The position numbers were made by a program, and so were the translations under genes. A stretch of DNA of 64,000 nt, taken from positions 4,526,001 through 4,590,000 of the forward strand of contig CAKKNE010000004.1 in NCBI GenBank assembly GCA_918797485.1. Direction: 5' to 3'. How positions within the stretch are numbered: position 1 is the first letter of the stretch; each line of letters opens with the position of its first letter. Source of the stretch: Pelagomonas calceolata. Lineage: Eukaryota; Sar; Pelagophyceae; Pelagomonadales; Pelagomonadaceae. Of this stretch, positions 3,236 to 59,730 are shown in pieces. Below the pieces are notes generated by a model that saw only the letters and a list, made by a program, of their open reading frames with translations, was not told where the DNA came from and did no database searches.

Positions 3236-4552
3236 ATGTTGCGCCAAACGTCACCGAAAGCCGCTTCAGGCGGCACCGGCTTCGCCATGCTCCCGAGCGC
3301 CCACCGCAAGCCGGAGCGCCGCGACTCGAAGGCGTTCAAGATGGAAACGCAGTTCAATACCGGCCGCGCGTGGTTCCTCTCCGTCGCGCTGTTGCTGGGC
3401 ACGCTCGGCTTCGTGCTCGTCGACCACTCGAGCCGGACGGCCAATTTGCGCGGCCACCTCCACGAGAAGCACGCGCGCGCGAACGAGCAGATCGCGACCC
3501 TGAAAACGCGCCTGCGCGGCCAGCTCTCCGCCGAGGCTCAGGCCAAAGAAGAGGCCCAGGCCTCGGCTGAAGCGGCCAAGAAGGAGGCCGCGGAAGGGAA
3601 GCGGTACTACCAGCAGGCGCGCGAGACGGCCGAGACGATCCGGCAGGCGCGCGACACGCTCAAGGCGGAGCGCGACACGGCGCGGCTCGAGCGCGACGTC
3701 GTGAGCGGCGTGAGAATCGCCACGCCGTCGACGCGACGCCATCGACGCGTCGGACGCCACGCCATCGACGCGTGATTCGCACGCAGGCCGCGAGGAAGGA
3801 CGCGCTCGCCGTCAAGGGCAAATTGGAGTACGACATCGAAATGGTGAAGGAGGAGGTCCAAAAATGGAAAAACCGGGCCCAGCTCGCGGTGCGGCAGGAT
3901 AACGAGCATAAGCAAGCCGCCGAGACGGCCGCGAGCGCCGCGGCGGCGAAGCTGGGGGAGGCAGAGCTCAACAAAGCCGCCGTTGCGGCGGAGAAGAACG
4001 CGGCCGAGGCCCGCGCGGCCGCGGCCGAGCGGAAGGTCGAGAACCGTGTGGAAATCAAAATTGTACGGCGTGTTCGTGCTGAATCGTCGCGTCGACCTCC
4101 ACGCCATCGGCGCGCCGCCAGCTCGACGGCGTGGCGATGCCGGTTCCCCACCGCTCGACGGAGCCAGCACGGCCGCGTCGTCGCCGAGAAATGACTGATT
4201 GGTTTCCACACAGGTCGAGAACCTCCAGGCGGAGCTCGACAAGGCGCGCGGGCTCCTCAGGAAGTGCCAGGACATGTTCGACACGCGCAACGCGGAGCTC
4301 CAGAAGCTCCGCGCCGACCACTCCGAGGACCACAACCAGGTCGTCGCGCACCAGAAGGAAATCGAGGCCATGAAAGAATGGTCCGAGGAGGCCAAGGGCC
4401 AGATGCAGGAGCTGTCGCAGCGCGCGGCGCAGACGCCGGCGCACATGTCCACGCTCGAGGCCATCCTCGCGCGCATGACGGCGCGGCCGACGGAAAAGGA
4501 CGTCGCGGAGGCCGAGCGCCTCCAGAAGGTCATGGCGGGGGCGGAGGACTAG
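3236..4552 (+). CDS. membrane-anchored coiled-coil protein with two introners
   Basis: Exons 3236-3700 (or to 3697), 3787-4035 and 4214-4552, all joined in phase 0; about 350 aa. Near residues 45-62 there is a transmembrane segment (WFLSVALLLGTLGFVLV). The rest is a long, highly charged coiled coil rich in Ala, Glu, Lys and Arg (for example residues 85-155, EAQAKEEAQASAEAAKKEAA), so the protein is probably a membrane-tethered rod or tether. I recognise no family. Both introns carry introner features, and the heptad pattern runs on across both junctions. The gene is convergent with eS27. Confidence 0.7.
3698..3786 (+). mobile_element. introner, intron 1 of coiled-coil gene
   Basis: Acceptor ...GCACGCAG at 3786. 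Left 8-mer GTCGTGAG (3698-3705) and right 8-mer GCCGCGAG (3787-3794) match at 6 of 8. Terminal repeats are CGGCGTGAGAATC and, as reverse complement, CTGCGTGCGAATC. Two ACGCCATCGACGCG cores lie inside. The donor is GT at 3698 (rule of exact restoration) or the stronger GTGAGC at 3701; both keep frame and differ by one Val. Confidence 0.75.
4036..4213 (+). mobile_element. full-length introner with perfect 8-bp duplication
   Basis: The best copy in the window. The intron is 178 nt. GTCGAGAA (followed by CC on both sides) occurs at 4036 and again at 4214, right after the acceptor. The element begins CCGTGTGGAAATCAAAA and ends ACTGATTGGTTTCCACACAG, a clear inverted repeat. Taking GT of the first duplication copy as donor and CACACAG as acceptor restores ...AAG GTC GAG AAC CTC... 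exactly in frame. The identical duplication suggests a young insertion. Confidence 0.9.
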
Positions 4553-4744
4553 GTGTGTCCATCGTTCCTACTACTACTCTCCTGGGGCTCGACGCGTAGC
4601 GTGCTGCGTAGGGCCGGGGGCGTACGGGCGCGGCGGCGAGATCACGCGGACCCCGCGTCGGCTCCGCGGCTAGGTGGCCTAAGCGAGCAGACGCGAGACC
4701 GAAGGTCCACGACGTCGCGGCAACGGCGCAAAACCCCTCGCCAT

Positions 4745-4759
4745 ACGCCGTCGCCGCGA
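4745..4759 (+). repeat. 15-mer ACGCCGTCGCCGCGA in 3' spacer
   Basis: Lies 18 bp past the eS27 stop codon, in the spacer between convergent genes. One of a family of 15-mers shared by 3' spacers and introns; see findings. Confidence 0.6.
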
Positions 4760-4777
4760 CAACTTAAAGGAACATAC

Positions 4778-5026
4778 TTAGTCTAGCTTCTTTCGGAAGG
4801 AGCAGCCCTCCGTGAGTCTGGCTTTGCCGCCCGTCGGCTGGCAGAGCATCATCGAGCACGAGCCGCACAGCACCGTCGTCTGCGCGTGGCTGAAGACCGT
4901 CGTGATGTTGAAGCAGCCCGGGCACTTCACGTCCATGAAAAAAGAGTTGGGGGATTGTACTAAGCGCTTGAGCTTGTGCTTCCGTTTTTCCTCGCTCGCC
5001 GAGGGGTGGAGGAGGTCGCGCACCAT
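4778..5026 (-). CDS. RPS27: 40S ribosomal protein eS27
   Basis: 82 aa, the normal length. It has the family's zinc ribbon, with CPGC at residues 36-39 and CGSC at 54-57, and the typical start [18 protein letters not shown]. eS27 is a zinc-binding protein of the small cytosolic ribosomal subunit. No intron in the coding part. The start codon sits in a good context (AAAAACCATGG). Another zinc-ribbon small-subunit protein gene, uS14, lies 1 kb away in divergent orientation. Confidence 0.95.
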
Positions 5027-7755: not shown

Positions 7756-8190
7756 TGAACCTCGCCGCCTCCTGTCATTTGTTGAACAGACCACCGCTGA
7801 ACAGACCACCGCATGTCGATATCCGCAAGAAGTCCTCCCCTCGAGCCCCGCGTCGCGTTGCGGGGAAGAAGAATGTAACGTACCATATATGTATTCTGTT
7901 TGGGGGTCCGAAGTTAGAGCTAGGCCGCCTAGCCACCACAACCGCACGCCCGCCCCCAACCGCCCCCGGCCCTCGTACGCCGTCGCCGCCCCGAGTGTAA
8001 CTAGCTCGGAGGCGGCACGAGTATGCCAATCAATTCTCTAGTACAGGGGGGGCGAGGGACGGGTCCACCGCCTACGGACGTTCAAGAGGGAGCTAATTAT
8101 CAAGGGGGGGGGGGCGCATGCAGCGCTTCCAAATCCAAAGCAGGGACAGGAAGCGCGCGACGGCGATGGAGAGCGACCGCGACGGCGCGA
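7756..8190. other. convergent spacer with 33-bp repeat copy A
   Basis: Spacer between the stops of the RSH gene and the Cys-rich gene. It holds copy A of a 33-bp repeat (7871-7903), a near match to the 3'-spacer 15-mer at 7977-7990, and a run of ten G at about 8104. No gene seen. Confidence 0.5.
7871..7903 (+). repeat. 33-bp direct repeat, copy A
   Basis: Starts GAATGTAACGTACC and ends ATTCTGTTTGG; identical over 33 bp to 9167-9199. It is preceded by a small hairpin (CCCCGC, loop, GCGGGG) that also has a counterpart (CCCGC/GCGGG) before copy B. Confidence 0.85.
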
Positions 8191-8952: not shown

Positions 8953-9166
8953 CTTGGCTATGTGCAGCAAAAATAGTGGTCTGGGCAGCGCCGCGCGCGC
9001 CCGGGCAGATCCCGGTGATGAAACTGCCCGGGCAGATCGGGTCGGGCGCGTGCCTCAGATCGGTCCGACGCGCCTCTCTGCAGGACTAGTATGGCTCTTC
9101 GGCCAGGCGTGCTCCTGTTTCCGTTCCCTGCTTTGGATTTGGTAGCGCGAACCCGCGTCTGCGGGG

Positions 9167-9199
9167 GAATGTAACGTACCATATATGTATTCTGTTTGG
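9167..9199 (+). repeat. 33-bp direct repeat, copy B
   Basis: Identical to copy A at 7871-7903. It lies between the start of the Cys-rich gene and the stop of ASCC3. An exact 15-mer TCGCGGCGACGGCGT follows at 9203-9217. Confidence 0.85.
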
Positions 9200-9246
9200 T
9201 GGTCGCGGCGACGGCGTTCGGATAAACAGCACTCTTACACACAACA

Positions 9247-12200
9247 CTAGGAGCCAGGCATGACGAACTCCGCCGCCCCCGCGTCCAACGCCTTGCCCAC
9301 GACGGTGATCGGCGGCAGCTCCACGGCCGCGTCGAAGCCCCGCGCGCCCTCGTAGACCGCGCGCAGCACGAGGCGCCACTCGCACGCCTCGTCGGGCGCC
9401 TCGACGGCCAACGAGGCCTCGCACGTCGCGCCGCCCACGACGACCTTTTTCAGAGCCACCAGCTCCTCGTCGTCGCTCAGGACGAGGTAGAAGGCGCGCG
9501 CGCCGCGGCCGTTGCTCCCCAGCGTCACCTCGACGGAGAACTCGCCTCCGGCCCCCACGTCCGCTACCGTTTTAGCGGTCAGCTTCGTCCGGCCGCGCGG
9601 CAGCGCCTCGCGCGAGCACTTGGACCGTATCGCCTGCGAGAGCTCGAGCAGCGCGAGCGTCGCATTTACACAACCGGCGTCGGCCGCGACGTCGATCAGG
9701 GCCGCCAGCACGCGCGGCGCCTGCTCGAGGACGCTCCTCTGGTCCGTCGCGTAGTCGGCGATCGGCAACTTGCCATCCCTTAGTTTCGCATGGATTAACA
9801 ACTGGGCCTTGGCGTGGGGCGAGTCGTAGCCGAGCTCGAGTAACCCCTGGATAGTCTCAGCATCATCATCGAGGAGCTGCGACGCTAAGTCAGAGTTCTC
9901 AATGTCCTCGTTGTGGCGCACGGGCAGCTCGTCGAACTCCCTTGCGGAACACAAAAACGCCACGGCCAACGCTTCTCTACGGCGTTGCGTAGCGTCCAAG
10001 ACCTCGGCCTCGAAGTCATCTACGTTTATAGAAGCTTCGGACGTCGTCCTATAATCTAAGTAGTAGTAGGCCGCGACGCTACCCAATGTAGCCGAGGATA
10101 CGTCATCCCCGTCCAACTCGACGACGCCGGCTTCATCCAAATCAATCAATACTTTACGAGAGAGCGTCTCCAAAAATGTGGAGATAGTTTTATCATCGCT
10201 ACCTTCACATTCGTAGAACGACGGGTTCCTCCGTAAGCGTCTATACAAGTAAGTCCACTTGAGCCACGCCACGCAGTCATTAATTGACTTGATTCTACCA
10301 CATAAACAAACCTCGGCACACACGAAGTTATGTAACGAGGATAGCAATCTACTTTCCACCGGAAAAGGTTCGTACAGGAACTTTTTGTAAAATTCCTTCT
10401 TCGGCTGGTGGACAAATATACAAGCCACACCAACACTATCAAATTGGGGTCTTCCCGCTCGTCCCATCATCTGCAACACGTCCGTCACCGGAAAGTCCAC
10501 GTACCGACCGAGCTTCCCGTCAAAAAACTCCGTGCCTTTCACTATAACTAATCTTGCGGGAAAGTTCACGCCCCAGGCTAGTGTGGAAGTACACACTAAA
10601 ACTTGGATCGCGCCCCTCTCAAACAAGTTCTCCACTATTTTACGGTCGGCCTCGTCCAGGCCGCCGTGGTGCACGCCGACGCCAAAAGGGAGGCAGTGCC
10701 TCAGTGCGGGGTCGTGGCACGTTTTCGCTATGGAATCCAGATCGTCGTCAGTACCGACCCAGGACTGGGTGTCATCATCAGACGCCGCGAGCGCTATTAA
10801 GTCCAGCGCGGTCAGCCTAGTTTGTCTTCTCGACGCCACAAAAATGAGAGCGGGCCGGCCCGACCTGTGTGGAAATCAACCAGTGTGTCGCGTGCGTCGA
10901 GCGGTGAGGAATTGACACCGCCACGCCGTCGAGCAGGCGTCGCGTCGATGGCGTGAGATGCGCCGCGACATTTGATTTCCACACAGGTCGCAACGCGTGC
11001 TCGCGCAAAGCGGCGTAACACGGCTTGTTCATCGTCGCCATGCGCGGGCAGTAGTGCTTGCCCGTGAAGCCCTGGATGTGCGCCTCCATGGCGACGGGCC
11101 GCACCGACGCGCGGAAATTAAAAACGTGCTCGCGAGAACCTACGTGGACATCAAATTTCGGGCGCCCCACGCCGTCGACGCGATGTCGTCTCCGTAGCTG
11201 CGTCGGCTCGATGGCGTGGAGGTGGATTTCCACGCAGGCAAGCACAGCCGAGCCAGGTACCGAGGTCGTGGGCGTTCGCCAACGCTGTTGATAAAGCCAC
11301 CACCCTTGTGGTAGATGTATATCTAGCTCTAGAAACCAACGCTTCCAAAACAGGCCCGCGATCTTCCCCGAGCAGGTGGACCTCGTCCAGGATCATCAGA
11401 GCGGCATGTCTCGCGTAGTCTCTCCGTTGGAACTGGCGCGTGACGCCGTCCCACTTCTCGGGCGTTGTTATTAACACATCAGCCTTCTTCAGAGCTCTTT
11501 GATCCGGTGCGGAATCGCCCGTCAATTCTTCCACCGAGAGACCAATAGCTCGGAACTTCGGCGTCCAGTCTCGGACCCTTTCCCTAGCTAATGCCTTCAA
11601 TGGAGCCACGTACACGGCCTTCAGCTTCTCGTCACCTCTCCTTCGGAGCAATCGGAAGATCGCCAACTCTGCTAAACAGGTTTTTCCGCTTCCAGTAGGA
11701 GCCCCTACCAATACATTTCCGTCCGTCCGAAACAACGCATGAAACACTTGCGTCTGGACGGGGTTGAAGTGGGAATACCCATAGAACTGCTGGAAGCGGT
11801 CGTCCTGCAAGGCTTCGATGGGTAACGGCCGTAATGGGAGCAATTCCGTCGGTGGTGGAGCCGGTGGAGGTAATTCCAACGTATTCGTGGACAACTCCAG
11901 TAAATGCGAGCAGGCGGACCAGCGATCACTTATAGCTCGGACGTAGAACTGGGGCGGCAGGGGATCTCGCACGGCCATCGTGAAGCTGAGCACGATAGCA
12001 TCGAGCGTTTTGCGCCGCCGGTCGACGGGGAACAAGGCCAATTCACAATGGTGGATGCGCTCCTCGGCGGCGTCCTCGACCCAGACCCACCACCTGCGTT
12101 GGGAGATGATCACGACGACGGCCTCAAAAGAAGGACGCTGCATACGCGCGGCTCCGGCCCCAATCCGTGGACCCGCGCGGCCCAGTCGTACAGCGGCGTC

Positions 12201-15200
12201 AGTGTTAATGATACGCGCAGCACGGACCGCGTGATCGGCTTTAACGAGCACTCTAACGTAACGGCGGGCAAACTTCTACAAGCCCGCACCAGGAACGGCG
12301 CCGCCCTACTATTACGTACCAGTGCCCCGATCTCAGCAACATCATCGATATCGTTCAAGATCCTATCAGGAGACAACCGTTGCGCCTCGAGCTGCCTGAG
12401 GGCATCTTCCGGGAAGCGCTGCCTTCGCACGTTCTGATTCGGCTCCAAATCCGCAATTTGCCGAATCGGGTGCTGGAACCACCACAACCTTCGCTCCACA
12501 GCCTTCGCTAAAGCCAACAACCGCTCAGCTAATGACGGCCAATGGGCTCGTAGAGCCATTTCAAATAAAGCGCGACAGACCCTAGCTGCATTTTTCGCGA
12601 CGTAAGTCGCATCTGAGGCTAAAGTAAACGCGGCGAAGGGCGCCCTCGAAATATGCGCTTGGAGTAACGTGGCGGCCTTGCCCGCGGGCTCGTCCTGGAT
12701 GGCTCGCAGTTTTTCCGAGCGGAGCGGGCAGCACGCCTCACTACTTCTAAGTCGATCGAGCTCGGCCATTTCTTCGTTGCGCGGTTTCAGCTGTTCGAAC
12801 TCATGGGCGCCACAGACCACTACAAGTATGTCGGCGTCGGAGGCGTGCTGCCTCAACGTCTCATTGAACTCCCTGATACTTTCATGTCGCAGGTAGTAGT
12901 GCGAACCTACTCGACCAACGTCGGTCCCGGCTAAGGCGCCTGAACGCTTATCATATCTACACATGCGCGCCTCGTCCAACTTTCGAGCAGCTTGACGTAG
13001 TAAAGTATCCCTATATCGCCCCATCCTTGGGTCCTCTTGGGCCTGGTCGTACGAGCAGCCGTACGCTAATGGGTTTCGACGTAGTCTTACCGCTAAAAAA
13101 GTGTGATCTAACCATCTGTCCGCGTCTTTGATGGAAGCGACCGTGCCGGCAGCGACTTCCGCGTTCACGGCGTCGGCCAAGCGAGGCACCAAGCAACTCT
13201 CGATCGGCGCCGCTCGCGCTAATTTACGTAAGTAGTCCGGTAGCGCTTTGGACGAAGTTAACAGTGTAGCCTCGCCGAAGTCGTCGAACTGCGGTCGTCC
13301 GGCCCTCCCAAAAATCTGCAGTACATCTAACATCGACAGGTCCACGTTGCCGCCCCGTTGGGGGTCATAGACGTCCGTACCCTTACATATGACCGCATGT
13401 GCGGGTAAATTGACGCCCCAGGCGAGCGTTGCCGTACAACATAATACCCTGACTGCTCCCGCCGCGAATAACCGCTCCGAGAGGCCTCTGTCACTACGAC
13501 TCATGCCCGCGTGATGGAGAGCAAAACCCGACTCCACGACTTCCGCCAGTTCGCGATGTCTACAAGATTTTAACTGCGATCGAAAGGGCTTCAAGGGGTC
13601 GCCCTCCGTATTGGCAAATGAGGCGTCGTTCCGCGCGGCCCGATCCCGCAAGTTCCGAGCTGTCTTCAGCGTTTCTTTTCGAGAATGCACAAAGACCATG
13701 ACCTGGTGACCACGGTTAACAGCGGACAGAGCAACATCATACGCCAGCTCGTCGAGCTTCATGCGCCGCTCGTGGTTCTTCACGGCCGTCACGCCCACAA
13801 ACGTCTGTTTCAGCGGCACGGGCCGGTATTCGGGACCGAAGAAGAAGACGCTATCGTCGGAACAGCCTAAGAACTGTCCCACATCCTCGTAATTGGGTAG
13901 AGTGGCTGAGAGACCCACGAGTCGTATTTGGGACTGCGTCGATTCGACCAATCGCGTCGTTCTCGCCACGACGCACTCCAGCACGGCACCCCGCTCCTCG
14001 GCCAACAAATGGATCTCGTCGACAATCAGCAGTCGGCAGCGCGAGGCCAACGAGCCCATGGCGTCTCCCGAACCTCCCCCTTGCTTCCTCGTCACGACGT
14101 CCCACTTTTCGGGCGTCACAACTAGTATATGGGCGGCGTCCGCTTCTCGTCTTGTGAGCTGGACGTCGCCTGTGAGTTCCCTCACTTGAATTCCTAGATT
14201 TCCGAGCCGCTCGGAGAACTTGGAGACGACCTCTTGCGCTAGCGCTTTCAGGGGGGCAACATACACAGCTTTGTGGTTCGCGAGTTGGGCGAGGAAGTCG
14301 TCTTCATGAGATGCGCGGACCCGCGCGACCTGCGTGGACAATCAGTGAGTCGGGTGCTCCCGCCACGCTGTCGAGCAGGCGTCGCGTCGATGGCGTGCTG
14401 GTCATGATTAACCGTGGGCGGAAGCGCAGCAAAATTCCACACGGCTCGCGACGAGCTCCAGCACCGTCAGTAGAGCGACGTTGGTTTTACCAGCACCCGT
14501 CGGCGCGCAGACGAGCATGTTCTTCCGCGACGAGAACGCACAGGGGTAGACGGCCGACTGCAACCGATTCAGCGTCTGCGTGCCCCGGAAGCAGCGCCGC
14601 GCCCACGCCGGCAAGGCAGAATCGACGCGCAACAACTCTCCTTCGATAGGTGGCGGCAGCGCCCGCGGCGGCGGGATCTCGACCTCCTCGTAGCCGTCGC
14701 CGTAGAATTTTTCCGCGCCCGACGGTAAGCCTGCTCTTTCAGCCCTATATTCTCGTTGGGCTTCGTCCAGAAACGCCGCGTGCTTCTTCTGCGGCGGTTG
14801 TGATAGACCTAGCGCGCGCTCCTGCGCGAGGTAGTGCTCGTCGAAGCCTAGAGCAGCCAGGTAGTCGGCGCCCTCGTCGATACCTTTGGCCTCGGCCTCC
14901 CGTCGTTGCTTCCGTAATTGCTTCTGGCGCCGCTGGGACTGCTTCTTAGGAGCACTGCGCACGGCGCCGCCCCTGAACTGCTGTTGCTGTGGAGGTGGTG
15001 GTCCCGCGACCTGTGTGAAATCAAAATGTCGGGCGTCCCCGTAACTCACTGGTTGATTTCCACGCAGGCCGCGACGCCAGACGCGGTCGCGATGGCCCGG
15101 ATGTCCCGCGCATCGACAGCAGCAACCGCGGCCTTCTTTGCACACAGCTCGCCCATCAATGCCAAAGCTTTATCACCAAACCCCAGCAACTCCATGAGCG

Positions 15201-15537
15201 CCTGCTGCATCGAGGCATCATCTCTTTTCGCCGCGTCGACGCAGCCGCACGCGAGCTCCGCCGCGCCGACCGCGGAATCCAAGGCGCGGCACCGCTCGAG
15301 GAGCCAGCCGGCGCCCACCGTCTCCGTGGGGGGTGGTGGTGGTGGCGCCTCTGGTTCTGGTTCGGGCGCCGTCTGTGCACCATAAGGGATCGCGTGGCGC
15401 CATTCTTCGCCAGCACTGGACGATGGCGCTCGCACGTCTTCTGTTTTCGCATTCGCTTTGAGCGCTTCGAGCTTGGCGACGTCGTGGGCGATCGATGCGC
15501 TGTCCAGGAGCGCTAGGAAGATGTTGGCTGGAGCCAT
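9247..15537 (-). CDS. ASCC3: ASCC3-like double Ski2 helicase
   Basis: Six exons: 15537-15076, 15010-14453, 14329-12150, 12093-11246, 11139-10995, 10864-9247; 1936 aa (human ASCC3 is about 2200). ASCC3 is the 3'-5' helicase of the ASC-1 complex, used in DNA alkylation repair and in splitting collided ribosomes. Cassette 1 has CAPTGAGKT near residue 322 and DEIH near 444. Cassette 2 has GAPTGSGKT near 1196 and DEVH near 1290. Each is followed by a Sec63-like block. The pre-helicase helices (ALMELLGFGDKAL), TELLPLRPLPIEAL and the ISDRW motif fit ASCC3 better than its relative Brr2. The spliced junctions in exons 4-6 match the human protein in length, as I remember it. Four introns are introners; a fifth may be GC-AG. 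Confidence 0.9.
10865..10994 (-). mobile_element. introner, intron 5 of ASCC3
   Basis: 130 nt. Ends CTGTGTGGAAATCAAATG and CTGGTTGATTTCCACACAG form a near-perfect inverted repeat. Left 8-mer GTTGCGAC and right 8-mer GTCGGGCC match at 5 of 8. The donor at the first base of the left copy gives ...EHA-SGRPALIFVASRR, the same length as human ASCC3 (SHS-PAKPVLIFVSSRR, from memory). It shares about 39 bp of nearly identical interior with the intron at 14330-14452. Confidence 0.9.
11140..11245 (-). mobile_element. introner, intron 4 of ASCC3
   Basis: 106 nt. Ends CTGCGTGGAAATCC and, as reverse complement, CTACGTGGACATCAAA. 8-mers GTGCTTGC / GTTCTCGC match at 6 of 8. The donor at the left copy (phase 1) gives WLGCSREHVFNFRASVRPV, which equals the human segment in length. 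The acceptor is TAG rather than CAG. Interior holds CGCGTCGACGGCGT-type core sequence. Confidence 0.88.
12094..12149 (-). other. candidate GC-AG intron in ASCC3
   Basis: Homology requires ...GPEP to join WWVWVED (human GEPWWIWVED). The only phase-compatible join I find is GAGCC|GCGCGT...AACGCAG|GTGG, a 56-nt intron with a GC donor. A GT donor four bases on (GTATGC at 12145) does not keep frame with this acceptor. A 23-nt GT-AG alternative seems too short. Confidence 0.55.
14330..14452 (-). mobile_element. introner, intron 2 of ASCC3
   Basis: 123 nt. 8-mers GTCGCGAG / GTCGCGCG match at 7 of 8. Ends CCGTGTGGAATTTTGC and CTGATTGTCCACGCAG. Core ACGCCATCGACGCG present. The donor at the left copy gives ...TVLEL-VARVRASHED in phase 0. 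A second in-frame donor (GTGGAA in the terminal repeat) would add VASR. Confidence 0.88.
15011..15075 (-). mobile_element. short introner, intron 1 of ASCC3
   Basis: 65 nt, the shortest clear copy. 8-mers GTCGCGGC / GTCGCGGG match at 7 of 8. Ends CTGCGTGGAAATCAACCAGT and TTTTGATTTCACACAG. Nearly all of it is terminal repeat, with GTTACGGGGACG inside, a word shared with the calpain introner at 21037. Frame is kept in phase 0. Confidence 0.88.
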
Positions 15538-20452: not shown

Positions 20453-21998
20453 ATGGAACGCCTCCTCCTCGCCAGCGTGAGCACCGCGCTGCTCGGCTAT
20501 GTAGCGTACGCGTTCCTCCGCCGCAACAAGAGCTCTAGGAAGCACGGCCGCGCCGCGCTCGCCGCAGACGACCAGCAATTCACGAGGCCGGCGACGGCAG
20601 GCGGTGTGTCGCAACGCATCGCGAAGGCGCGCGCCAACTGCTTCGGCCGGCAGACGTTCGAGAAGCTCACGGCGGAGGCGGCGGAGCTCTCGGCGAGAGG
20701 CGCCTTCTGGTCGGATCCGCTCTTCACGCATGACGACTCCTCGCTATTTATGGACCCAAGCCGCCCGCCGGAAGACTGGCTCCGCGACGGCGAGCGCGGG
20801 AAGGTCATCAAAGGGGCCGAGGTCGTGTGGTGTCCGCCGCCGAAATTCTGCACGGCCTCGCGACCTCTGGGCAAGCGCGCGCGCGACGGCGGCGCCACGT
20901 GGCTGTACGGGGACGCGGATGAGACGGGTGCGGTCTCGGCGGGCGCGAGCCAGAACGCCGACGACGTCGCGCAGGGCTCGCTCGGAGATTGTTACTTGTT
21001 GTCGGCCCTGGCGCTGGCGACGCGGGACAGCGCCGTGTGAGACGCTGTGTGGAAATCATGTTACGGGGACGACGTCGCGTCGATGGCGTGGGGGGCGCGT
21101 AATTTGATGCCCACACAGGTGCGACGACCTCATCGACGATACCTATGAAGACGTGGGGATCTATGGCGTCACGCTCTGCGTGCGCGGCAGATTCACAATG
21201 GTGTGGGTCGACGCGCATTTCCCGTGCTGGCGGCCTGCAAATGCGCACGGCAAGCACCGCCGACCTAAACCAATCTATGCGACGAGCACGGACCATAGGG
21301 AAATTTGGCCGATGGTGGTCGAAAAAGCGTACGCGAAGGTAGCGGGCTCCTACGAGGCCATCGGCCGCGGCGGTCGCGTCGCGCCAGCGCTCGAGACGCT
21401 GACCGGCGGCGCGGCCTGGTCCGTGGACGCGATGACCATCCCGTGGAAGGACCTCCGGCGCGCGGTCGAGGACAATGATGTGTTCGTCGGCGCCGGCTCG
21501 GAGCACAACCTATCTGAAAGAGAACTTGAGGGTGTCGTCGGCGGCCACGCCTACTCGATTTTACACGTGGTCGACGTTGGCGCCGACGCCGACCGCGTGC
21601 GTTTATTACTACTACGCAATCCGTGGGGGAAGAGCGAGTGGAAAGGCGACTGGAGCGACTCGTCGTCCTGCTGGCGCAAGCGGCCCGACGTCGCAGCCGC
21701 CGTCGGGAACAAGCGCTCGCACGACGACGATGGGCGCTTCTGGATCCAACTGCCCGACTTCCGCCAGCGCTTCCGCACCGTCGATCTGTGTCGCGTGAAG
21801 AACGGACAGCTGAAGGAGCGCAACACGCTCAAGGAGCGGACCGCGGCGGAGAGTGCCGCCGACGCCGAGGCGGCCGCCACCGACGACGACTGGCTGGCCG
21901 AGATACCGGGCGCGTCGCGCGCGAACGACTCGCCCAAGGCGCCCTCGAAGAAGAAGTCCAAGTCCAAGAAGAAGCACAAGAAGAAGTCCAAGCGCTGA
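20453..21998 (+). CDS. membrane-anchored calpain-like cysteine protease
   Basis: Exons 20453-21036 and 21119-21998, joined in phase 2; 487 aa. A single N-terminal membrane segment (LLLASVSTALLGYVAYAFL) precedes a calpain protease core with all three catalytic residues: Cys in QGSLGDCYLLSALAL, His in VGGHAYSILHVV, and Asn in LLRNPWGKSEWKGDW. The tail is a Lys-rich segment (KKSKSKKKHKKKSKR). No penta-EF-hand domain, so Ca control, if any, is in the core. The catalytic Cys and His lie on different exons, so the introner must be removed for activity. The spliced join reads DSAV-CDDLIDD. Confidence 0.88.
21037..21118 (+). mobile_element. introner in calpain gene
   Basis: 82 nt. 8-mers GTGAGACG / GTGCGACG match at 7 of 8. 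Ends CTGTGTGGAAATCATG and TTTGATGCCCACACAG. Core CGCGTCGATGGCGT inside, and GTTACGGGGACG shared with the ASCC3 intron 1. Donor GTGAGA at the left copy is the only phase-2 donor that reaches the right frame. Unspliced read-through meets a stop within two codons. Confidence 0.92.
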
Positions 21999-31900: not shown

Positions 31901-34900
31901 CCACTTCGCCTTCGTCGCGGCGTCGGACTTGATGTTCTCGAACGTCGTATTCAATAACAGCGCTGATTTGGTCGCCGCGTCGATGCCCTGCACGAGGCCC
32001 GCCGCGCTCGGCGCGTGCTTCTGGAGCCAGGTCAGCTCTTTGCTCAGCGTTTCGATTTCTTCCAAGCGTTTCCGGCGTTCCTCTCTCAATACCCTTAAAC
32101 CCTTCAGCAGGTCGACGCGTTCTTGAGAACGAGACGCGAAGAGGCGGCACCAGTGCGCGAACTCCACTTCTAGAGTTCTTACTTGCGTGTAGAGGGCCTT
32201 GCGCCTGTGTGGACGTCGACGGCGTCGGAGCGCGTCGTCCCACGCCATCGACGCGACGCGTTCCTCGCTGTCTCGGCACCGATGTCTTCAGCTCAAACTC
32301 GGACACGACCGCCGAGCGCCCCACGCGACCGTATTGAGAGCGTAACACCTCCCCCAAACCCCGACACACCGCAAATTGAAGTACAACTTGAAGACACGGC
32401 CCGCGACTGCTCGTCCGTCATCTCCATGCGCTCGTCGTCGATCTGCAGCTCCTGGTTGCACCGCTCCGTCTCGCCTTCACAACGACTGGACTCGACCTCG
32501 GCCTCGTCCATCAAGCCTTGCACTACGAGCACTTTCCGCTCGCCGAGGCGCATCGACGTCCAGAGATCGTCGGTCGCGACCCTACAAACTTTCAACCTCT
32601 CTTGGATCTCCACACCGCGCTTGTGTTGTGCATCTAATTCCGCATTCGCCGTCCGCACGGCGTGGGCTTCGACGGTAATACTGTATTTAGTTGCTGAAGC
32701 TGCACCTAACACGACGTTGTAGACTCCACTTTTCAGAGGCTTTTCACTCGGATCATGCACGAGCACGGTCTTGCCGAAGGTCGTGCCCGTGTTCAACTGT
32801 TGCGAGGAGTAGGGCGCATACCCGATAGGTATCGGTGGCGATAATTGGCCCTTCGTAGGTAGGCGAAACAACGTAGCGGCAATCCTTCCGAGTCGATAGC
32901 CTCTTGCTGTAAAAACTCCCCTGTAAACAACAGTTATGGTAAGTGATAGGAACTTCCTATCCGTTTCCTCGGGTACGACGAACCGATGCGTCCGCGATTC
33001 TCGCGTTTCGAGACTTTCATTTTCATCTAACAACGACGCGCGTTTGCCCTCGTATTCAAATAAGACAGCTTGGGGGTCTTTCGGCTTCGGTCTTAGTTCG
33101 TTCAACTTTTCTACACTCTCTACAACAGTCACTGGTGGTTTGGCAATGGTCACCGTCGACTCATCGTCGTCAGAGCCAAAGCGCTCCGCTCGAGCTATAG
33201 CTACATTCTGTAGCGGATCACCACCAACAAGACCATCTTCGAGCGTCCCGTCATCATCAAAACTACCTCGAGACCGTCGCGATTCCAGCGAACTTTCCTC
33301 GGGAAAGTCCGTTAAATCGCGCTGTTTCCTATCATATCTATCTTGGGCGATCCTATTGAACTGCTTGTCGAGCTGTTTCTGCGCGCCTTTCCTGCGCCGC
33401 CCGTGCGTGTCGACCCGACCGTCGACGTAAAACTCCTCGAGTAGCAATCTAACTTCTTCGTCCGGCTCGAACGCCAGCGGTGGCACGGCGTCGACCAACT
33501 CTAGTAACGTTTCTCTAGTGTGTGCTTCGCCGTTGATGCGGTAGGGGAACCACTTCGTCGCGAAATGTAACTCGACGTCCGTGGCGCCCTGCTCGTACAT
33601 TTTACGCTGTGCGACATATTCATCTCCCTGGTTCAGGCCTACGGTAGCGTCCATTCCAGCTGAAGAATGGGCCTCTTCGAGCAGCTCCAAGGCCCGCGCG
33701 TCGTCGTCCGCATCCTTATCACTGGCTTGGGGCGCGAAATTCAACTCAGGATGTAACAATCTGTCAAGTACTAAGTAGCGGGCCTCGTCCTCACTCAGCT
33801 CGATCGCCTGCATCGACCGTAGCCGTGCCAGACGCCTCTCCCTTAGTACAATGTCGAGCAATGCCGCAGTTTTTTGTTGTGCCCCAAAGGATCTGTTCGA
33901 TGGTGTTTGCGTCGACTCGCGTCGCAGCGGGTCCTCGTGGTCCACAGACGTAACTCTACGTTGATGCAAACCGCCCTCCAACACGCGCCCCGTCTTATCT
34001 AAGCTTCTAAAGTGCGCCTCCCCCTCTTCGTGGGTATACATGCACAGCAGTCGGTGAGCTTCGATCTCCTGGTCAGAAAAAAGAAACGGTAAGGCTAACT
34101 GCAACACCCTCGGTAGCGCCAGGATCCGCTCGATGTCCTCGGGCGGCAGCGTCGGCGCGTAGTCCGCATCGTACTTCATCTCCTCGGCCTCCTGCTCGGA
34201 CACGTGGCCGTACGCGATCGGATTAATCAGCACATCTAAAGCAACCCATTTTTTTTCATCTTTCGAACGTTCTGCTGGTTTCATATGCCTCACACGCATC
34301 GCCACACAATCACCTTGCCCTGTTTTGTTGGCCTTGTTCTGCAAATTCTCCTCTGCTGCCCTTTCTTCGTCGAGCTTTGCGGCGCGTTCCTGCTCCTGGA
34401 TCATATCTTTTAATTCCTGCATGACGGATCTTCCGGTCGCTTCCTTGTGGGCGTCCACCACCGCATTCATGACGTCCTCGACGGTCGCGGCCTCGCCGTC
34501 CAAGGCCCTCAGATCTCTATTGGAAGCTCGCAGATCTCGCTCCGACTGTTTTAACGTGCGATCGAGATCCCTGACACGTCGCTCCAACGCCAACTGTTCC
34601 TTATTGAGCGAATGCTTCAGATCTTTCGTGGCCATGCGCTGCAGGACGCCGGGGTTCCACAGATCCGAATTCACGAACTCGGCCGTGTGACCCTTGACCC
34701 TTCCAATTTCGATGTCGACTTTGGCCAAGCGATCCTTCGCTTGCTTGATGGTCTTGCGCTGCTCCACGGCGTTTCTCTCCTTTTCCGTTTTCTCCAGGCG
34801 CTTCTGGCCCCTTCTTGTTCGTAACATCCGGCCCAGTCGATCCAAAGCCGCCACTAAGATTTGCGCGGCCTGCTCCTTCTTCTCTACCACTACCTTCAAG

Positions 34901-51007: not shown

Positions 51008-54000
51008 ATGCGTGCATCAATGTGCGTGCTGACGCTGCTGCTGACAGCCAATGCTCTCCGCACGCCGTCGCTGCGTATGAGCGTCGCGGATCCACAACGA
51101 AGACGCCTCTTCCAAGGCGCCGCAGCATTGATAACTTTCCGAGCCTACGAAGCACCCGCAGCATCGAAGACGACAAGAATACTACAAGAGACCTTCGCGA
51201 AGCCGCAAACAGACTCCAAAAGCTACCGACTCGTAGAATTAGCGAGCGGCGTCCGCTGTTTACTCGTGCAGGACCCGAGAGCCGAGAAGTGCGCCGCGGC
51301 GCTAGATGTACATGTGGGCCATATGTCCGATCCAATCGACCGCCCGGGCCTCGCCCACTTCTGCGAGCACATGTTGTTTCTGGGAAACGACAAGTACCCG
51401 GGTGAGGACGAGTTCGAACAGTACATCTCGAGAGTCGGCGGCTCCTCGAACGCGTTCACGGACACCGAGGACACGTGCTACTTCTTCGAGCTGCCTGATC
51501 CGGCGAAGGTCGGCTCCGCTCTAGAGCGGTGGGGGCCCTTCTTCTCGGCCCCCAGATTCGCGCAAGATGCGACTCGTCGAGAGGTCGAGGCGATTGATAG
51601 TGAACACTCAAAAAATCTGAAGAGCGACGGGTTTCGGCTCTTCCAGCTGACGAAGTCGCGCTTTCCTTCCACGCACCCCTTCTCGAAGTTCGGCACGGGG
51701 ACGCGGAAGACCCTGAGGCCTCCGAACGGCGACGGCGACCCGCCCGTCGACAAGTTGCGAGAATTTTACGGTACGAACTACGTTGGTAGTAATATGGCCT
51801 GCGTCGTCTGCTCGACGCAATCCTTGGACGTGCTCCAGAAGCTCACCGAGAATGCTTTGGTAGATGTCAGAAGTACTACTGAGCGAAGGCCTCCGTCCAC
51901 ATTGTACTTCGACGAAGAGCCGCTACCAAAAGATTCAGATGCCTATGTCCTGGCATCCCTGCAGTCGCAACGAGAGCTCAGTGTGCAGTGGGTCTTACCG
52001 TATGACCGTAGTGATCCAGACAGTGCCTTTGCCGATAGGATACAAAAACGCTACTTCCGAGATGACCTGTTTCTGTCTCATATTTTGGGGCACGAAGGGC
52101 CTGATTCAATCCTAGCGGACCTAAGGAGGCGAGGCCTCGCCACGGGGCTCGGTGCTGGTAGTGGTGAAGACACCGATCAGTTCCGAACTTTTGATGTTTC
52201 TGTACAATTAACACAGAAAGGTTTAAAGGAGTGGCGCAGCGTCTTGGCGACGATACGGGGCGCGGCGCTTGGTTTACAAACGGCGGAGTGGCCCTCCAAC
52301 TGCTTCGAGGAGACGGCGCGGATGGCGCGGCTCGGGTTCCAGTGCGGTCTCGGCGTCCCGCAGTTATCGTCGCGTCGATGGCGTGGGAGCGCTACGCCAT
52401 CGAGCGGGGCCCAGTGACGTTGATGTCCGCGCAGGTGGGGCGAGACGCCCGACGTGGCGAACCTCGCGACCGCTTTAGCTGGTAAATTACAAGTGGTGGG
52501 CTGGGGCGCGTCCGAAGATTTGAGGGATCTATTGGCTTTAGATAGGACGCCGCGCGACGCGTCGACGGATGAGAGAAGACGGGCGGTCTCCGAGTTATTG
52601 AGGGAGATGAACACTAACGTGCCATTGGTGACCGTAGTGGCGCCTCAAGATGAGTTACAAGTAGCCGCCAAGGGTGCTAAAAAGGTAGAACCCATCTACA
52701 AGACGCCCTATTTCGCCGAGAAGCTCTCTGAAAAAGTGACCTCGTCTCAGATAAAATTTCCGCCGGTGAACCCGTACATACCCGATACAGACCCAAAGCC
52801 CAAGTACGCCAAGAAAGCTAAGCCTACGCTCAAGGACTTCGGGCCGCCGACCAAGTTACTAGACGACGGCTTCGGCAAGCTGTGGTTCAAGGAGGATAGG
52901 ATCTTCGGCGTGCCGCGCGCGGCCGTTTTAGTTTTGTTGAGGACGGAGGCCACCGGTTCGAGAAGTGCGGCCGACGCGATTCACGCGCGGATCTGGACGC
53001 GCCTCGCTGCCGATGCCTTGAGAGATGCGGACTATCAACGAGAGTTTGATTCTTATGATGCTTCTTTAGCTGGCTTAGAATGGACATTAGGGGCCGGGCC
53101 GCGCGGCGTGCAGTTGTCGTTTGGGGGCTACGATGCTAAGCTTCCCGAGCTTGCGGAGGCAGTGGTGAGTGCGGTGAAGGGCTTTGATGCCGTACAGTAC
53201 GCTCTGAAAAATGATAATCTCGAGCGCGTGCTCGATGGTACGAGAAGAGACATAAGAGCGGCCCGGGCGGCGCCGGCCTCGTCGCGATGCATCGAGGAGC
53301 TCGGGGTGCTCACAGAGCGACCGAAGTTCCCTTTGATCGAGGCCGAGAACGCCCTCAAGAAGACGAACGTCGAGTCCCTGCGGAAATGGTTGACTGAGAA
53401 CGCGAACGTGTTTGGTTCTGTGGCCGCGACGGATGTCCTGGTCGAGGGCAACTGCGACGAGACTTATGCGAGGCGCATCGAGAAAAGCGTCCGAAGTGGT
53501 TTATCAGGCGGTTCGACCATCCCGGCGGAGCCCTCGGTGCTCCAAGTGCCTCTCTCTACCAAAGTACCTATCAGATATGCGGCGAAACCCTCTGCAAGTG
53601 ACGAGGTCAACTACGCCGCCATTTATTCCTACCAAACGGGAAGCGGGTCTGACGTGCGGGCGGCTACCTTGGTACTTTCATCAGTGCTAGAGGCGCCCTT
53701 CTACGAAGCGTTGCGGACGAAACGGCAATTGGGTTATGTGGTCCAGGCCGCGTCGCGCTACCGAGAAGGTGTGTCGTCTATGGTCTTCCTGGCGCAGTCG
53801 GCGAAGGATGATGACGTGTGTAGAGGACCGTCGGATTTGGTCCGATATATCGACGAATTTTTAGATACTGAAGCGCCTCAATTACTAGATAAGTTGGACG
53901 CAGCCCAGCTCGCGGACATCGTCGACGGCCTCGCGCGGCGGTTAGACGAGCTCCCGAAGGCGCTGGGCGGCGCGGTGGCCCCGCACTGGGACGAGATCGT

Positions 54001-55472: not shown

Positions 55473-56102
55473 ATGCAGCGATTACTTGTCACTCTTTGCC
55501 TCGGCGCCGCGTCGGCGTTCGCGCCGCAAGTTTCGACGACGAACAGCCTTGTTAGGCTGCAGGCCAATCCCATCGACATCTACAGCAGTCCTGCGGCGCG
55601 GAATCGCGACTTCGTACATTCGTGGGAGCGGCAGCAATTGGACTACTTCGCGCTGCCAATCGTCGCGCTGCCGGAAGCCCGGACATCAAAGTTAGCGACG
55701 TGACGCCACCGCGCTCTGAGGCCGATAGAGGATCGATTCCCGCGCGCAGGCGCGGCCGAGGACTGCTTGCAGGAGGAGTGCTCCGTCGACACGGTCCAGA
55801 TGCTCGTGGGCCAGCTCAAGACGCGCGAGCAGGAGCTCGCGAAGAAGGGCCGCATCGTCGACTACGAGCGCGAGGCCGCACTCGCGGGCGTGCGCACGAT
55901 GATCCACGACCTTGAAGGCGCCGACGCGGCGTCCTCGCTATTTTCACGCCATCGACGCGGCGGGGGGATGGCGTTGCGGTAGGGTAGAATTCCGACGCCA
56001 TCGACACGTGCCCGCGCAGGCCCGGCCGACCCCAACCCCGTAGTCCTTGCCGTCAAGGCCGCGTTCGACCTGAACAAGGCCAACGTCTACGTCAACAAGT
56101 GA
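55473..56102 (+). CDS. small plastid-targeted helical protein, three exons
   Basis: Exons 55473-55661, 55731-55917, 56020-56102; 152 aa. MQRLLVTLCLGAASAFAPQV is the classic ASAFAP plastid leader. The mature part reads RNRDFVHSWERQQLDYFALP then IDRFPRAGAAEDCLQEECSV, and is helical, ending AAFDLNKANVYVNK. No named family; such short conserved helical proteins occur in plastids of stramenopiles. Intron 1 (69 nt, GTCGCG...GATAGAG) is less sure than intron 2. Intron 2 has a GC donor. The last exon is in frame only with that GC-AG splice. Confidence 0.7.
55662..55730 (+). other. 69-nt intron in small plastid gene
   Basis: GTCGCGCTGCC...GATAGAG, phase 0, joins ALPI to DRFPRAG. No introner ends. A GC-donor alternative that uses the CGCGCAG acceptor at 55750 is out of frame, so I prefer this one. 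Confidence 0.5.
55918..56019 (+). mobile_element. GC-AG introner in small plastid gene
   Basis: 102 nt. Splicing G|GCGCCGAC...GCGCAG|GCCCGGCC gives LEGPADPNPVVLAVK in frame. The 8-mers GCGCCGAC / GCCCGGCC match at 5 of 8. Two ACGCCATCGAC cores inside. No in-frame GT donor is near. So the target began with GC and the intron is GC-AG. Confidence 0.65.
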
Positions 56103-57269: not shown

Positions 57270-57610
57270 CGTCGACAGCGTGATCGGGCTGCTACCCTGC
57301 CGTGAATGTCCGCAGGGCGAGGTCTGTTGTGCCCGCGACGTAATAGCCTGAGCCTGAGCCTGTGCAAAGCACTGCTCTGTTTGGTATTGCCGCGGCGTCG
57401 CGCGCGCAGACAAGTGGTCTTGCGCGTGTTGGATCGCGTCTGTAGGGCGACTGCAGCGGTTGTTTCGATACCTTGCTTGCCCAGGCGCGCGCCCAGCCAG
57501 ACTTCAGGCTGCAGGCAGCAGCGCATCGCTCCGAGGTAGCAGTTGCTGTTTGCGCCGCGCGCAGCCTCACCGATTGAATTACGCCTTCAAAAGGCGAGCA
57601 GTAACACAAA
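57270..57610. other. divergent spacer
   Basis: 341 bp between EngB and the next plastid gene. No recurring box recognised. Confidence 0.5.
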
Positions 57611-58531
57611 ATGCGACGCGCAAGAGCACTGCTGTCGCTCGGCGCCCTCACGGCAGCACTGCAGCCCCTGCCGCATGCAAGCCGCCGCACGGCCCTTCGA
57701 GCGGTCGACGACGACATGGTGCTGGAGCACGACTACAAACGAAGCACGGACCACCCCGGCAGCTTCTCCGACGATGTTATAGAAGAGATCGACGAGCTCA
57801 TCGCGCTGCGGAGCGACGCGAAAAAGAATAAAAACTACAAGCAAGCGGACGCGCTGCGAGAAGAATTGAGCGGATGCTACGACGTCTACGTCGACGACGC
57901 GTTGAGAGAGTGGCGCGCCGGCGCGCCGCCGGAGCCTGAACAAGTACCGATCCCGGTCTACGACGGGCCCACCAGTGGAGGATTTGGAATAATCGACGAG
58001 GACGCCGAGTGGGAGCGGCGGCGCATTCCGAGAGGTCGGAAAGCTCTGGCCGCGCAGCGCAAGGCGTATTTCGCGTTAGATGGTGAAATCACGCAAGTCT
58101 GGGCCCGCGCGAAGGGTCGGGACTTCTTCGTCGGCCGCGTGAAAGGTGGAAATGCGGCATTTGCGATGCAGTTCGATTTGATAGATTGGTCGGCGAAGGA
58201 GCTGCACCTGCCGCTCGGCGCGTCTCGGAAAGTGGCTTATCTGATCGCGAAGGATGTAGAGCGGGCGGACGTCGCGGCGTGGGAGGCGACACCGAACCGC
58301 GAGGCCCAGCCCTCTTCGTTGAAAGCGCCTTCAGACGCCGTCGATGCGGACTTATCAGTGAGGACGGCGGACAAGGTGGGTTTTCTGGCCGCCAAAAGCC
58401 CGCTGCCTCCCACGACCCTGGGCAATCTTGTTAAAAGGTGGCGCACGCGGGGCCAGTCGGCCTCCGATTTGACGCCTGAGATGCGGCCGACGGGCTCCGC
58501 CGCCGGGAACACGGGGCGGGCCAAGCGCTAA
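57611..58531 (+). CDS. organelle-targeted protein with a CysRS-tail-like helix
   Basis: 306 aa, single exon. A hydrophobic leader (ALLSLGALTAALQPLPHA) with Arg-rich transit part suggests plastid or mitochondrial import. Residues about 60-90 (EIDELIALRSDAKKNKNYKQ then ADALREEL) match the short R-x-x-AR-x-x-K-x-[YF]-x-x-AD-x-LR pattern found at the end of cysteinyl-tRNA synthetases and in some plastid proteins. The rest (about 120-306) has no recognised domain, though FFVGRVKGGNAAFAMQFDLI is beta-rich. Role unknown; nucleic-acid or tRNA binding is only a guess. Confidence 0.65.
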   Translation: MRRARALLSLGALTAALQPLPHASRRTALRAVDDDMVLEHDYKRSTDHPGSFSDDVIEEIDELIALRSDAKKNKNYKQADALREELSGCYDVYVDDALREWRAGAPPEPEQVPIPVYDGPTSGGFGIIDEDAEWERRRIPRGRKALAAQRKAYFALDGEITQVWARAKGRDFFVGRVKGGNAAFAMQFDLIDWSAKELHLPLGASRKVAYLIAKDVERADVAAWEATPNREAQPSSLKAPSDAVDADLSVRTADKVGFLAAKSPLPPTTLGNLVKRWRTRGQSASDLTPEMRPTGSAAGNTGRAKR

Positions 58532-58618
58532 GTATATCTATCCGAGTCCGTCGAACCATCGGAGTCGGACATGTATTTCTTACACGAGTCGAGGGATGAA
58601 TTTGGTCGTCACAGTAGA

Positions 58619-59730
58619 TCACCAGGCGGTGAACGTGCCCCAGACGGACCGCTGGTCCTTGAGGAACGGCAAGAGGCGCGCCGCGAGCTCGACGGGCGCC
58701 GGCGGCAGCTCGCCCACTAAATAGTGGCCGCGCTTGCCCAGCACGACGCGCTGATCACCTAATGTAACTTCAGCGCCGTCGGCGCCGCGCGCAAAGGAGT
58801 CCACCGTCTCGCGCGCGCCCGCCGCGACCGACGACGCCTCGTGCGCCTTGATGAGCTCGCGGTAGTCCAGCAGCGTGTCGAGGAACGACCGGCCTGCGTG
58901 CTTGTCTTTGTACTGCTGCTGCGCGTCCGCGAACTTGGCCGCCTGGGCCTTGTGGCGCGTCGCCGCCTTCGCGGCCTCCTCTCTCAGGGATGCGGCGTCG
59001 TCATATGGCAGCGACGTCGTGCGCAGCGTCACCTTCGTCATCTGACCGTCGCCATCTTTCACGAAGCACCAGCATTCAAAAATGTCCGGCGTATCCCGCT
59101 GCGGGCCCTGGACCTTGGCTGGCATGAGCCGCCAGCCGGCGCCACCGGCTTCTAATGTGCAAGACGAGTCGCGGCCCGACGCCGGCGTCACAATACAACC
59201 ACCTGACTCGAGGAAGCTCCACTGCGCCCGGAGGAACGCCGCGTCGCCGCCGTCCAGGCCCCGTAAAGTCGTGCGGAACTTGATTCCGGGCAACGCCGAG
59301 GGTGCCTCTTCGACAAATTCAAGGATGTTGTTCTCGATGCGCTCGAGCTTGGCCTGCTGGAGCTCGTCGGACAGCTCGGCGATGGACGCGCGCAGCGCGT
59401 CGGCCTCGTGAGCGTACTCCTCGGCGAGCGCGGCGCACGACTCGGCGTCGTGGCAGTCCGGCGGCGGCGCCGGGGCCTTCGGGGCGACCTGCGTGTTCGG
59501 CGTTGTGTTCAAGCAGGTAGTGCGCGCGGTGTAGGCGTTCCGGGCGGTGCGTCGGCAGCTTTTCGGGCGTGGGCGACGTTTCGATCGTGTGTTTTGGGCG
59601 TTTGTTCAAGCAAGTTGTTTGGAAGCTCCATTATGGGCATGACCTTTTCGACACAGCGCAGAACCTTCGTCGGTGCTAATGTATTAACAGCAACAGCTGA
59701 ACACGCGGTAATGAGGGCTGGGAGTTTCAT
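58619..59730 (-). CDS. secreted or plastid protein of unknown function, two exons
   Basis: Exons 59730-59578 and 59488-58619 joined in phase 0; 340 aa. The first exon supplies a leader (MKLPALITACSAVAVNTLAP) with a TLAP end, which the second exon alone lacks. Then comes coiled coil (ALAEEYAHEADALRASIAEL), a beta-rich middle (LRAQWSFLESGGCIVTPASG to ECWCFVKDGDGQMTKVTLRT), another helix, and a C-terminal VTLGDQRVVLGKRGHYLVGE block. No family recognised. I found the first exon through the 8-bp repeat rule. Confidence 0.65.
59489..59577 (-). mobile_element. introner-like intron with 8-bp duplication
   Basis: 89 nt. 8-mers GTCGCCCA / GTCGCCCC match at 7 of 8. Acceptor GAACACGCAG. Donor GT at the first copy and phase 0 on both sides give DRN-VAPKAPAPPP. 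Terminal repeats are weak, so the element end is old. Confidence 0.7.

Follow-up and report, generated by a model that had tools for sequence, protein, structure and literature searches.

The origin of new introns is an old question, and its best-documented answer is the DNA transposon that splices itself out. This introner mechanism is established for Aureococcus and Micromonas; the introners of Aureococcus anophagefferens are, as Huff, Zilberman and Roy reportedly described in 2016, short non-autonomous DNA elements that carry one splice site and co-opt the other from the duplication. A 64,000-base stretch of contig 4 of the pelagophyte Pelagomonas calceolata (positions 4,526,001-4,590,000; ‘the window’ below) raises the question in a concrete form, as it contains eleven introns with related ends. 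How were these introns made, and what supplies their splice sites? Very probably each is an introner, one copy of a non-autonomous DNA transposon of the cut-and-paste type (a miniature inverted-repeat transposable element, MITE), with an 8-bp duplication supplying the splice donor. On sequence evidence, hundreds of such small DNA transposons seem to have been turned into introns in this alga.

The genome analysed has 32,445,274 bases in 8 contigs, and the window has a G + C content of 61.7%. The main text of Guerin et al. 2022 (PMC9481584) describes the RCC100 assembly as 32.4 Mb over six nuclear contigs, with one plastid and one mitochondrial contig in addition and a G + C content of 63.6%; Table 1 of the same paper puts P. 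calceolata in one class with Aureococcus. Transcriptomes of the strains RCC969, RCC2362, RCC706 and RCC981 are also named there. The word ‘introner’ occurs for P. calceolata once in that main text, which points to a Supplementary Note. A link between the species and such elements is therefore already hinted at in its genome paper, and the family may possibly have been described in Supplementary Note 3. What is new here is the anatomy at the level of single copies, a comparison of sense and antisense sides, the 29% share of GC donors, and the scarcity of copies that could not be spliced.

Eleven introns of the window

The element is a short inverted-repeat DNA with the end CTGTGTGGAAATCA, inverted ends of 14-15 bp, and a main class of about 203 bp. 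Each intron is read as a left 8-bp word, which holds the donor, followed by the element; a second word stands in the exon beyond it. The introns are given below in window coordinates, with the agreement between the two words and the effect on the reading frame of removing the left word and the element.

3698..3786, plus strand: introner-derived intron, decayed, 89 bp; donor word 3698-3705 GTCGTGAG, exon word 3787-3794 GCCGCGAG, 6/8; frame kept, phase 0
4036..4213, plus strand: introner intron, 178 bp; donor word 4036-4043 GTCGAGAA, exon word 4214-4221 GTCGAGAA, 8/8; frame kept, phase 0
4044-4213, plus strand: element within the 4036..4213 intron; ends CCGTGTGGAAATCAA / TTGGTTTCCACACAG
10865..10994, minus strand: introner intron in an ASCC3-like helicase gene, 130 bp; perfect 15-bp ends; donor word 10987-10994 GTTGCGAC, exon word 10857-10864 GTCGGGCC, 5/8
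11140..11245, minus strand: introner intron in the same gene, 106 bp; donor word 11238-11245 GTGCTTGC, exon word 11132-11139 GTTCTCGC, 6/8
14330..14452, minus strand: introner intron in the same gene, 123 bp; donor word 14445-14452 GTCGCGAG, exon word 14322-14329 GTCGCGCG, 7/8; frame kept, phase 0
15011..15075, minus strand: introner intron in the same gene, 65 bp; donor word 15068-15075 GTCGCGGC, exon word 15003-15010 GTCGCGGG, 7/8; frame kept, phase 0
21037..21118, plus strand: introner intron, 82 bp; donor word 21037-21044 GTGAGACG, exon word 21119-21126 GTGCGACG, 7/8; frame kept, phase 2
32205..32407, minus strand: probable decayed introner intron, 203 bp; one recognisable end, at 32205; words 3/8; frame kept, phase 2
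52342..52434, plus strand: decayed introner intron, 93 bp; donor word 52342-52349 GTGCGGTC, exon word 52435-52442 GTGGGGCG, 5/8; core TCGCGTCGATGGCGTG; frame kept, phase 2
55918..56019, plus strand: decayed introner intron with a GC donor, 102 bp; words GCGCCGAC / GCCCGGCC, 5/8; frame kept, phase 1
59489..59577, minus strand: decayed introner intron, 89 bp; words GTCGCCCA / GTCGCCCC, 7/8; frame kept, phase 0, weak upstream score

All eleven introns lie where an earlier note on this DNA had placed them, and the series of word matches that it claimed (8, 7, 7, 7, 7, 6, 6 and 5 of 8 positions) was borne out, the other three introns giving 5, 5 and 3; the 32205-32407 copy, with its words at 3/8, has no recognisable duplication. 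Taken together, the words agree at 66 of 88 positions, compared with a mean of 44.8 after permutation of the right words among the eleven introns (p 5e-5; one of 20,000 permutations reached 66). Word positions 3-8 alone give 46 of 66 against 26.2 under permutation (p 5e-5), and shifting the register by 1 to 4 bases either way drops the agreement to 16-33. For the 15-base end motif, with up to 3 mismatches allowed, the window has 13 occurrences against an expectation of 0.53. Furthermore, by a codon-usage model that had 158 long open frames of the sampled DNA as its training set, the best reading frame is unchanged in all eleven introns after removal of the left word and element, with a chance of one in three for each. 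The smallest margin is at 59489, where the upstream exon scores about zero.

Copies across the genome

A genome-wide count finds 1,642 exact matches to the 14-base end, 833 on one strand and 809 on the other, and none to its reversed control; with up to one mismatch there are 2,612 occurrences and 6 for the control. Similarity searches from introner introns returned 829 candidates, of which 40 were scored, and 775 with the 4036 intron as query, again with 40 scored, queries included. Copies were collected from 93 sequences (L001-L092 and the window) as facing end pairs no more than 320 bases apart, with no more than 4 mismatches summed over both ends, and removal of duplicates left 92 copies out of 78 sequences. 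These genome-wide ends and paired copies bear out the proposal of an inverted-repeat element family.

The two words match at 8/8 positions in 51 of the 92 copies, at 7/8 in 21, at 6/8 in 5, at 5/8 in 4 and at fewer in 11, a mean of 6.86 of 8 compared with 2.92 for cross-pairs. A signal appears at the 8-base register alone, with a match of 0.857 per position compared with 0.365 in cross-pairs; lengths of 2-7 and 9-13 give 0.20-0.35, near their nulls, so the claim that the duplication has eight bases and no other length stands. A genome devoid of copies with matching 8-mers, which the earlier note had named as speaking against its reading, is not what was found, as 72 of 92 match at 7 or 8 positions. 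The graded decay that it described also holds: word mismatches rise with end mismatches over the 92 copies (Spearman 0.40, p 6e-5), though the two are not strictly parallel in the window, where the intron at 10865 combines perfect ends with a 5/8 word. As a separate observation, the words GTTCTGGC and ACCAGAAC of one intact 203-base copy with perfect ends (L065:1451-1653) match at 1/8 directly and, by eye, at 7/8 as reverse complements.

Copy lengths range from 52 to 206 bases, with 33 of the 92 at 200-206 and 22 at exactly 203. The 203-bp class looks young because its words differ by 2.4% per site (31 copies), compared with 9.3% in the 50 other copies with words of at least 5/8; the shorter elements are derivatives and on average older. 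With a left word of 8 bases and an element of 203, the resulting intron has 211 bases, in agreement with the intron-length peak near 210 bp that the main text of the genome paper gives for P. calceolata (PMC9481584). A chromosome-scale genome, an abundant ocean alga in culture, and a young class of copies together make insertion, decay, and the filter on donors measurable copy by copy.

Could such likeness arise in ordinary old introns, with end motifs shared through convergence on splice signals? CAG acceptors and GT or GC donors are general, as this explanation needs. However, the likeness spans elements from end to end, as in a match of 95% over 151 bases; within the 203 class, the 33 copies lie on average 3.6% from their own consensus; and no part in splicing is known for the left end repeat. 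Convergence is therefore scarcely credible.

Two side observations concern the interior of the element. The predicted RNA fold of one 203-class copy (L036:1501-1702) pairs both ends, at -81.4 kcal/mol with a z of -3.7 relative to shuffles, and a fold of this kind could draw the donor towards the acceptor. Apart from the introns listed above, the core word CGCCATCGACGCG is also present at window positions 26293, 43791, 56177 and 63623; these sites are perhaps parts of old, unrecognised copies, or due to chance.

Donor, frame and splicing sense

Which bases serve as the donor can be approached by comparing the two sides of each copy. Words were scored for GT or GC (GY) at the word start in gene sense, which on the right side is read as AC or GC at the word end, and the coding strand was called by codon usage alone, without use of the words. 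Unless all 92 copies are named, the counts refer to the 81 with words of at least 5/8, leaving out the 11 below that, and to the 68 of the 81 that were called coding; among the 11 poor-word copies, 8 were called coding. GY stands on the left side only in 30 copies, on the right only in 32, on both sides in 19 and on neither in none, and for all 92 copies the corresponding numbers are 34, 35, 22 and 1. When the coding copies are read in gene sense, the sense-side word starts with GY in 68 of 68 (GT 48, GC 20), and the antisense side has GY in 14 of 68, near the 18% found for flanking dinucleotides. Coding strand and GY side agree in 50 of 51 copies.

A transposase with a preference for a GY....RC-like target site would also place GT or GC at the words, and 19 of 81 words satisfy it on both sides, somewhat above the roughly 10% estimated by hand from an 18% background per side and an either-side filter. 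A symmetric enzyme of this type would, however, be blind to the coding strand. Since GY is present in 68/68 on the sense side and in 14/68 on the antisense side, the left word appears to be used as the donor and a strand-blind preference does not suffice as an explanation; we regard it as highly unlikely. So the duplication probably supplies the splice donor, and splicing, not target preference, would set the GY rule. The same comparison offers a simple way to separate selection by splicing from insertion preference in any introner family.

The claim that the donor is the opening dinucleotide of the left duplication, and that the acceptor AG is formed by the end of the element, is in this way upheld by the asymmetry of GY as well as by the reading frames and an alignment described below. 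It had been worded for GT, which applies to 48 of the 68 coding copies, and the other 20 have GC instead. Relative to availability, GT is preferred about five-fold to GC (48:20, compared with 0.155:0.341 per codon), and the intron phases of the 68 coding copies (28/12/28) track the availability of GT by codon position (0.069/0.027/0.059). Which copy of the word loses its GT first gives a count of 2 versus 2, with too few changes to be informative.

By the codon model, the frame is kept in 60 of the 62 copies of unambiguous sense (the 81 less the 19 with GY on both sides) and in 68 of 68 copies called coding. The 13 good-word copies not called coding have GT in 9, GC in 3 and AT in 1, and 10 of them are in frame. 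The earlier note had taken the frame as a guide to the donor. Its rule holds for all eleven window introns, but frame by itself cannot settle the matter and was set aside as proof, since a GT further inside the element (CTGT|GTGG) adds 12 bases and is frame-neutral. A donor inside the end repeat (CTGT|GTGGAA) would add to the mRNA, with each insertion, 4 element bases and the 8 of the duplication; the frame would be kept, as 12 is a multiple of three, and the first four bases of the element followed by GT resemble a case illustrated by Gozashti et al. 2022 (PMC9860276). In-frame stops within these 12 bases, found in 1 of 68 copies, carry no information here, since the frame in which the left word is read is the ancestral one.

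The helicase gene, which contains four of the window introns, bears on this choice.

9250..15537, minus strand: ASCC3/Slh1-like two-cassette helicase gene, 1,936 amino acids after removal of the four introner introns and the 12094..12149 intron
12094..12149, minus strand: short GC-AG intron of 56 bases in this gene, placed by hand and required for the open frame of 1,936 amino acids

The end of the 56-base intron, CAACGCAG, resembles an introner end; no duplication is recognisable by eye, and the intron is not recognisably an introner. Compared with solved structures, a 420-residue piece of the helicase matches ASCC3 (8alz_B) with an E value of 1.9e-251 and a 286-residue piece matches ASCC3 with 1.9e-119. 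The junctions at 11140 (WLG|CSREHVFNF) and 10865 (LREH|ASGRPALIF) sit in gapless alignment to 8alz_B, which four extra residues at either site would interrupt. The junction at 14330 lies in a loop of variable length and that at 15011 beyond the compared pieces, and neither decides the donor. A donor within the repeat also leaves the difference between 68/68 on the sense side and 14/68 on the other side without explanation, which makes it very improbable.

The orientation of the copies bears on a further possibility, that they spread at the RNA level, with spliced intron RNA reverse-splicing into other transcripts and being copied back, as proposed for fungal introner-like elements. The presence of GT or GC on at least one side in all but one of the 92 copies and the coding call for 68 of the 81 good-word copies would be expected from such a route. 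However, 8-bp duplications together with inverted ends point to DNA transposition, and reverse splicing would keep one orientation. The element stands in the two orientations relative to splice sense in a ratio of 22:21, counted in the 43 of 81 copies that are readable and unambiguous (38 are left out, 19 with GY on both sides and 19 with no readable inner orientation). Both ends of the element finish in ...CCACACAG, and because both thus end in CAG, both orientations are workable. The balance of orientations, the duplication, and the inverted ends appear to fit DNA transposition, not reverse splicing, and spread through RNA is extremely unlikely. Fungal introner-like elements also occur as near-identical introns at many gene positions, but passages of PMC9860276 describe them as being without inverted ends or duplications, whereas the P. 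calceolata introners have both and occur in both orientations.

The comparison with other introners is closest within the pelagophytes. In the Amoebophrya paper (PMC7789003), passages on Aureococcus state that its introners always show constant-length direct repeats and terminal inverted repeats, and call their splice motifs canonical. The A. anophagefferens introners share with those of P. calceolata a pelagophyte host, inverted ends, direct repeats of fixed length, and a co-opted splice site; unlike the canonical Aureococcus motifs, the P. calceolata introners use GC donors in 20 of 68 (29%) coding copies. Introner family 4 of Aureococcus sp. TARA_AOS_82_MAG_00129 (Gozashti et al. 2022, Fig. 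2F, PMC9860276) is drawn there with both splice sites carried by the element and a gain of 12 bases in the mRNA. It resembles the family described here in its 8-bp duplication and in having four element bases before the donor, which fits the NNNNGT form of the end (here CTGTGT); it differs in that the P. calceolata donor appears to lie in the duplication, with nothing added to the mRNA. Symbiodinium microadriaticum introners (Gozashti et al. 2022, Fig. 2B) also have inverted ends, with a 4-bp duplication compared with 8 bp in P. calceolata.

The DNA itself displays the element ends, the 8-bp duplication, the restored frame, GY on the sense side only, and both orientations. The introner reading joins these in the following way. 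Insertion into an exon would duplicate 8 bp, and either landing orientation would give a 3′ splice site (CAG) flush with the element end. Where the duplicated 8 bp start with GT or GC in gene sense, that copy would become the 5′ splice site. The intron would then comprise the left duplication and the element, and its removal would restore the mRNA exactly as it was before insertion. Insertions that lack GT or GC on the sense side are hardly seen, and selection or another filter may keep those that can be spliced. The element would be moved in trans by a transposase, which has perhaps an even chance of being hAT-like.

Several observations weigh against this reading. The 92 copies were selected for a close match to the ends, which under-samples old copies and skews the picture of age towards the young. 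Eleven of them have words below 5/8, with sense-side donors of GT in 8, GG in 1, AG in 1 and TG in 1; those called coding are in frame in 6 of 8 cases, and one of the poor-word copies (L054) has GY on neither side. Of the 13 good-word copies that lack a coding call, the weak model puts 3 out of frame, and one copy (L037) reads AT on the inferred sense and GT on the opposite side. Finally, family searches of the genome, in which the P-element and Merlin families were not included, found no autonomous element or transposase with introner ends.

Scarce copies, candidate transposases and other repeats

The scarcity of copies outside introns is the least explained point. Eight bases outside the exact ends, GY is found at 1,038 of 1,642 ends (GT 679, GC 359), or 63.2% genome-wide, and the same share is 61.7% for the ends of the 81 good-word copies, all of which have GY on some side; copies that could not be spliced would lower it. 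The share of unspliceable copies is then at most about 8% (bootstrap 97.5% bound, with 18% GY assumed for such ends), and copies of this type seem, from these counts, to be almost absent genome-wide. By the same coding rule, 68.2% of 2,000 random window positions are called coding and 31.8% are not; therefore, more intergenic copies are expected than are seen. One rather doubtful suggestion is that insertion is tied to transcribed and spliced DNA, for example through the open chromatin of active genes or contact with nascent RNA, or that non-intron copies are purged very fast while introns are shielded from deletion. More broadly, either insertion favours genes, which Gozashti et al. 2022 (PMC9860276) discuss in general terms, or copies elsewhere disappear sooner.

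Searches for a source of mobility gave few leads. In the genome, the MULE family gave no match, the KDZ family gave none with its controls silent too, which makes that result uninformative, and DUF4371 gave one sub-threshold match (E 0.26) in an 810-residue open frame with, by eye, a coiled-coil look. hAT transposons typically duplicate 8 bp. They share this and their short inverted ends with the P. calceolata introners; the difference is that no hAT transposase with introner ends was found in the genome searches. The hAT dimerisation family PF05699 gave two loci above the cut-off in the genome search. In a protein scan, that on contig 4 remained above the cut-off and that on contig 5 dropped below it, with a sub-threshold DUF659 match beside it.

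L041 4450-8100: contig-4 hAT element; ends CAGGGCAGCAGAAGGG, 16/16; duplication TTGCTCGC, 8/8
L042 4022-6890: contig-5 hAT element; ends CTAGGTTGCCATTAAC, 15/16; duplication ACACTCGG, 8/8; transposase at 1,220,744-1,223,239 of contig 5

The best control end pair in a stretch of the window reached 12/16, compared with 16/16 and 15/16 for these ends. No second full copy of either element was found in the genome, and the contig-5 protein has one relative of 63 residues on contig 3. The contig-5 end CTAGGTTGCCATTAAC matches the introner end at 10/16 and its other end does so at 9/16, where 0.27% of window 16-mers starting with C reach 10/16; the contig-4 end matches at 5/16. The likeness of the contig-5 end may be taken as a lead, not proof, and the introner is not assigned to hAT. 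At L041:6981-7047, around the gap that separates its two open frames, the contig-4 element also contains introner-derived sequence (85% over 67 bases), and an introner seems to have landed there in the transposase gene.

Two long end pairs, picked by eye among the matches listed (mainly on contig 1), were rejected as sources of a transposase. The words of C1:549074/552511 do not match, and C1:1839238-1841456 consists of separate introners, the first of them within what we take, from its look, to be an acetate-kinase-like gene. Viruses were considered as carriers and rejected, since no 203-class element pair was found in viral contigs, with no exact match. A 17-base match in a 58.8-kb viral contig was judged to be chance, with no partner end in the 9.5 kb examined and surrounding DNA of 45% G + C.

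Other repeats were also observed in the window. The motif GTAAGACACTAG, often within CTAGCGGC..GTAAGACACTAG, has 8 occurrences with up to one mismatch, where 0.11 are expected; the exact motif occurs 12 times in 267 kb of sampled loci and its reversed form does not occur.

Window 3018, 15731, 28082, 39213, 46333, 50885, 54269 and 62196: motif GTAAGACACTAG; several of these sites look intergenic

A separate region at about 7870-9200 has an inverted repeat of 30 bases (8123-8152 / 9119-9148, 90%) around a stretch with an internal duplication of 178 bases (77%), and identical 33-base direct repeats stand outside, at 7871 and 9167. This region looks like a mobile or duplicated cassette.

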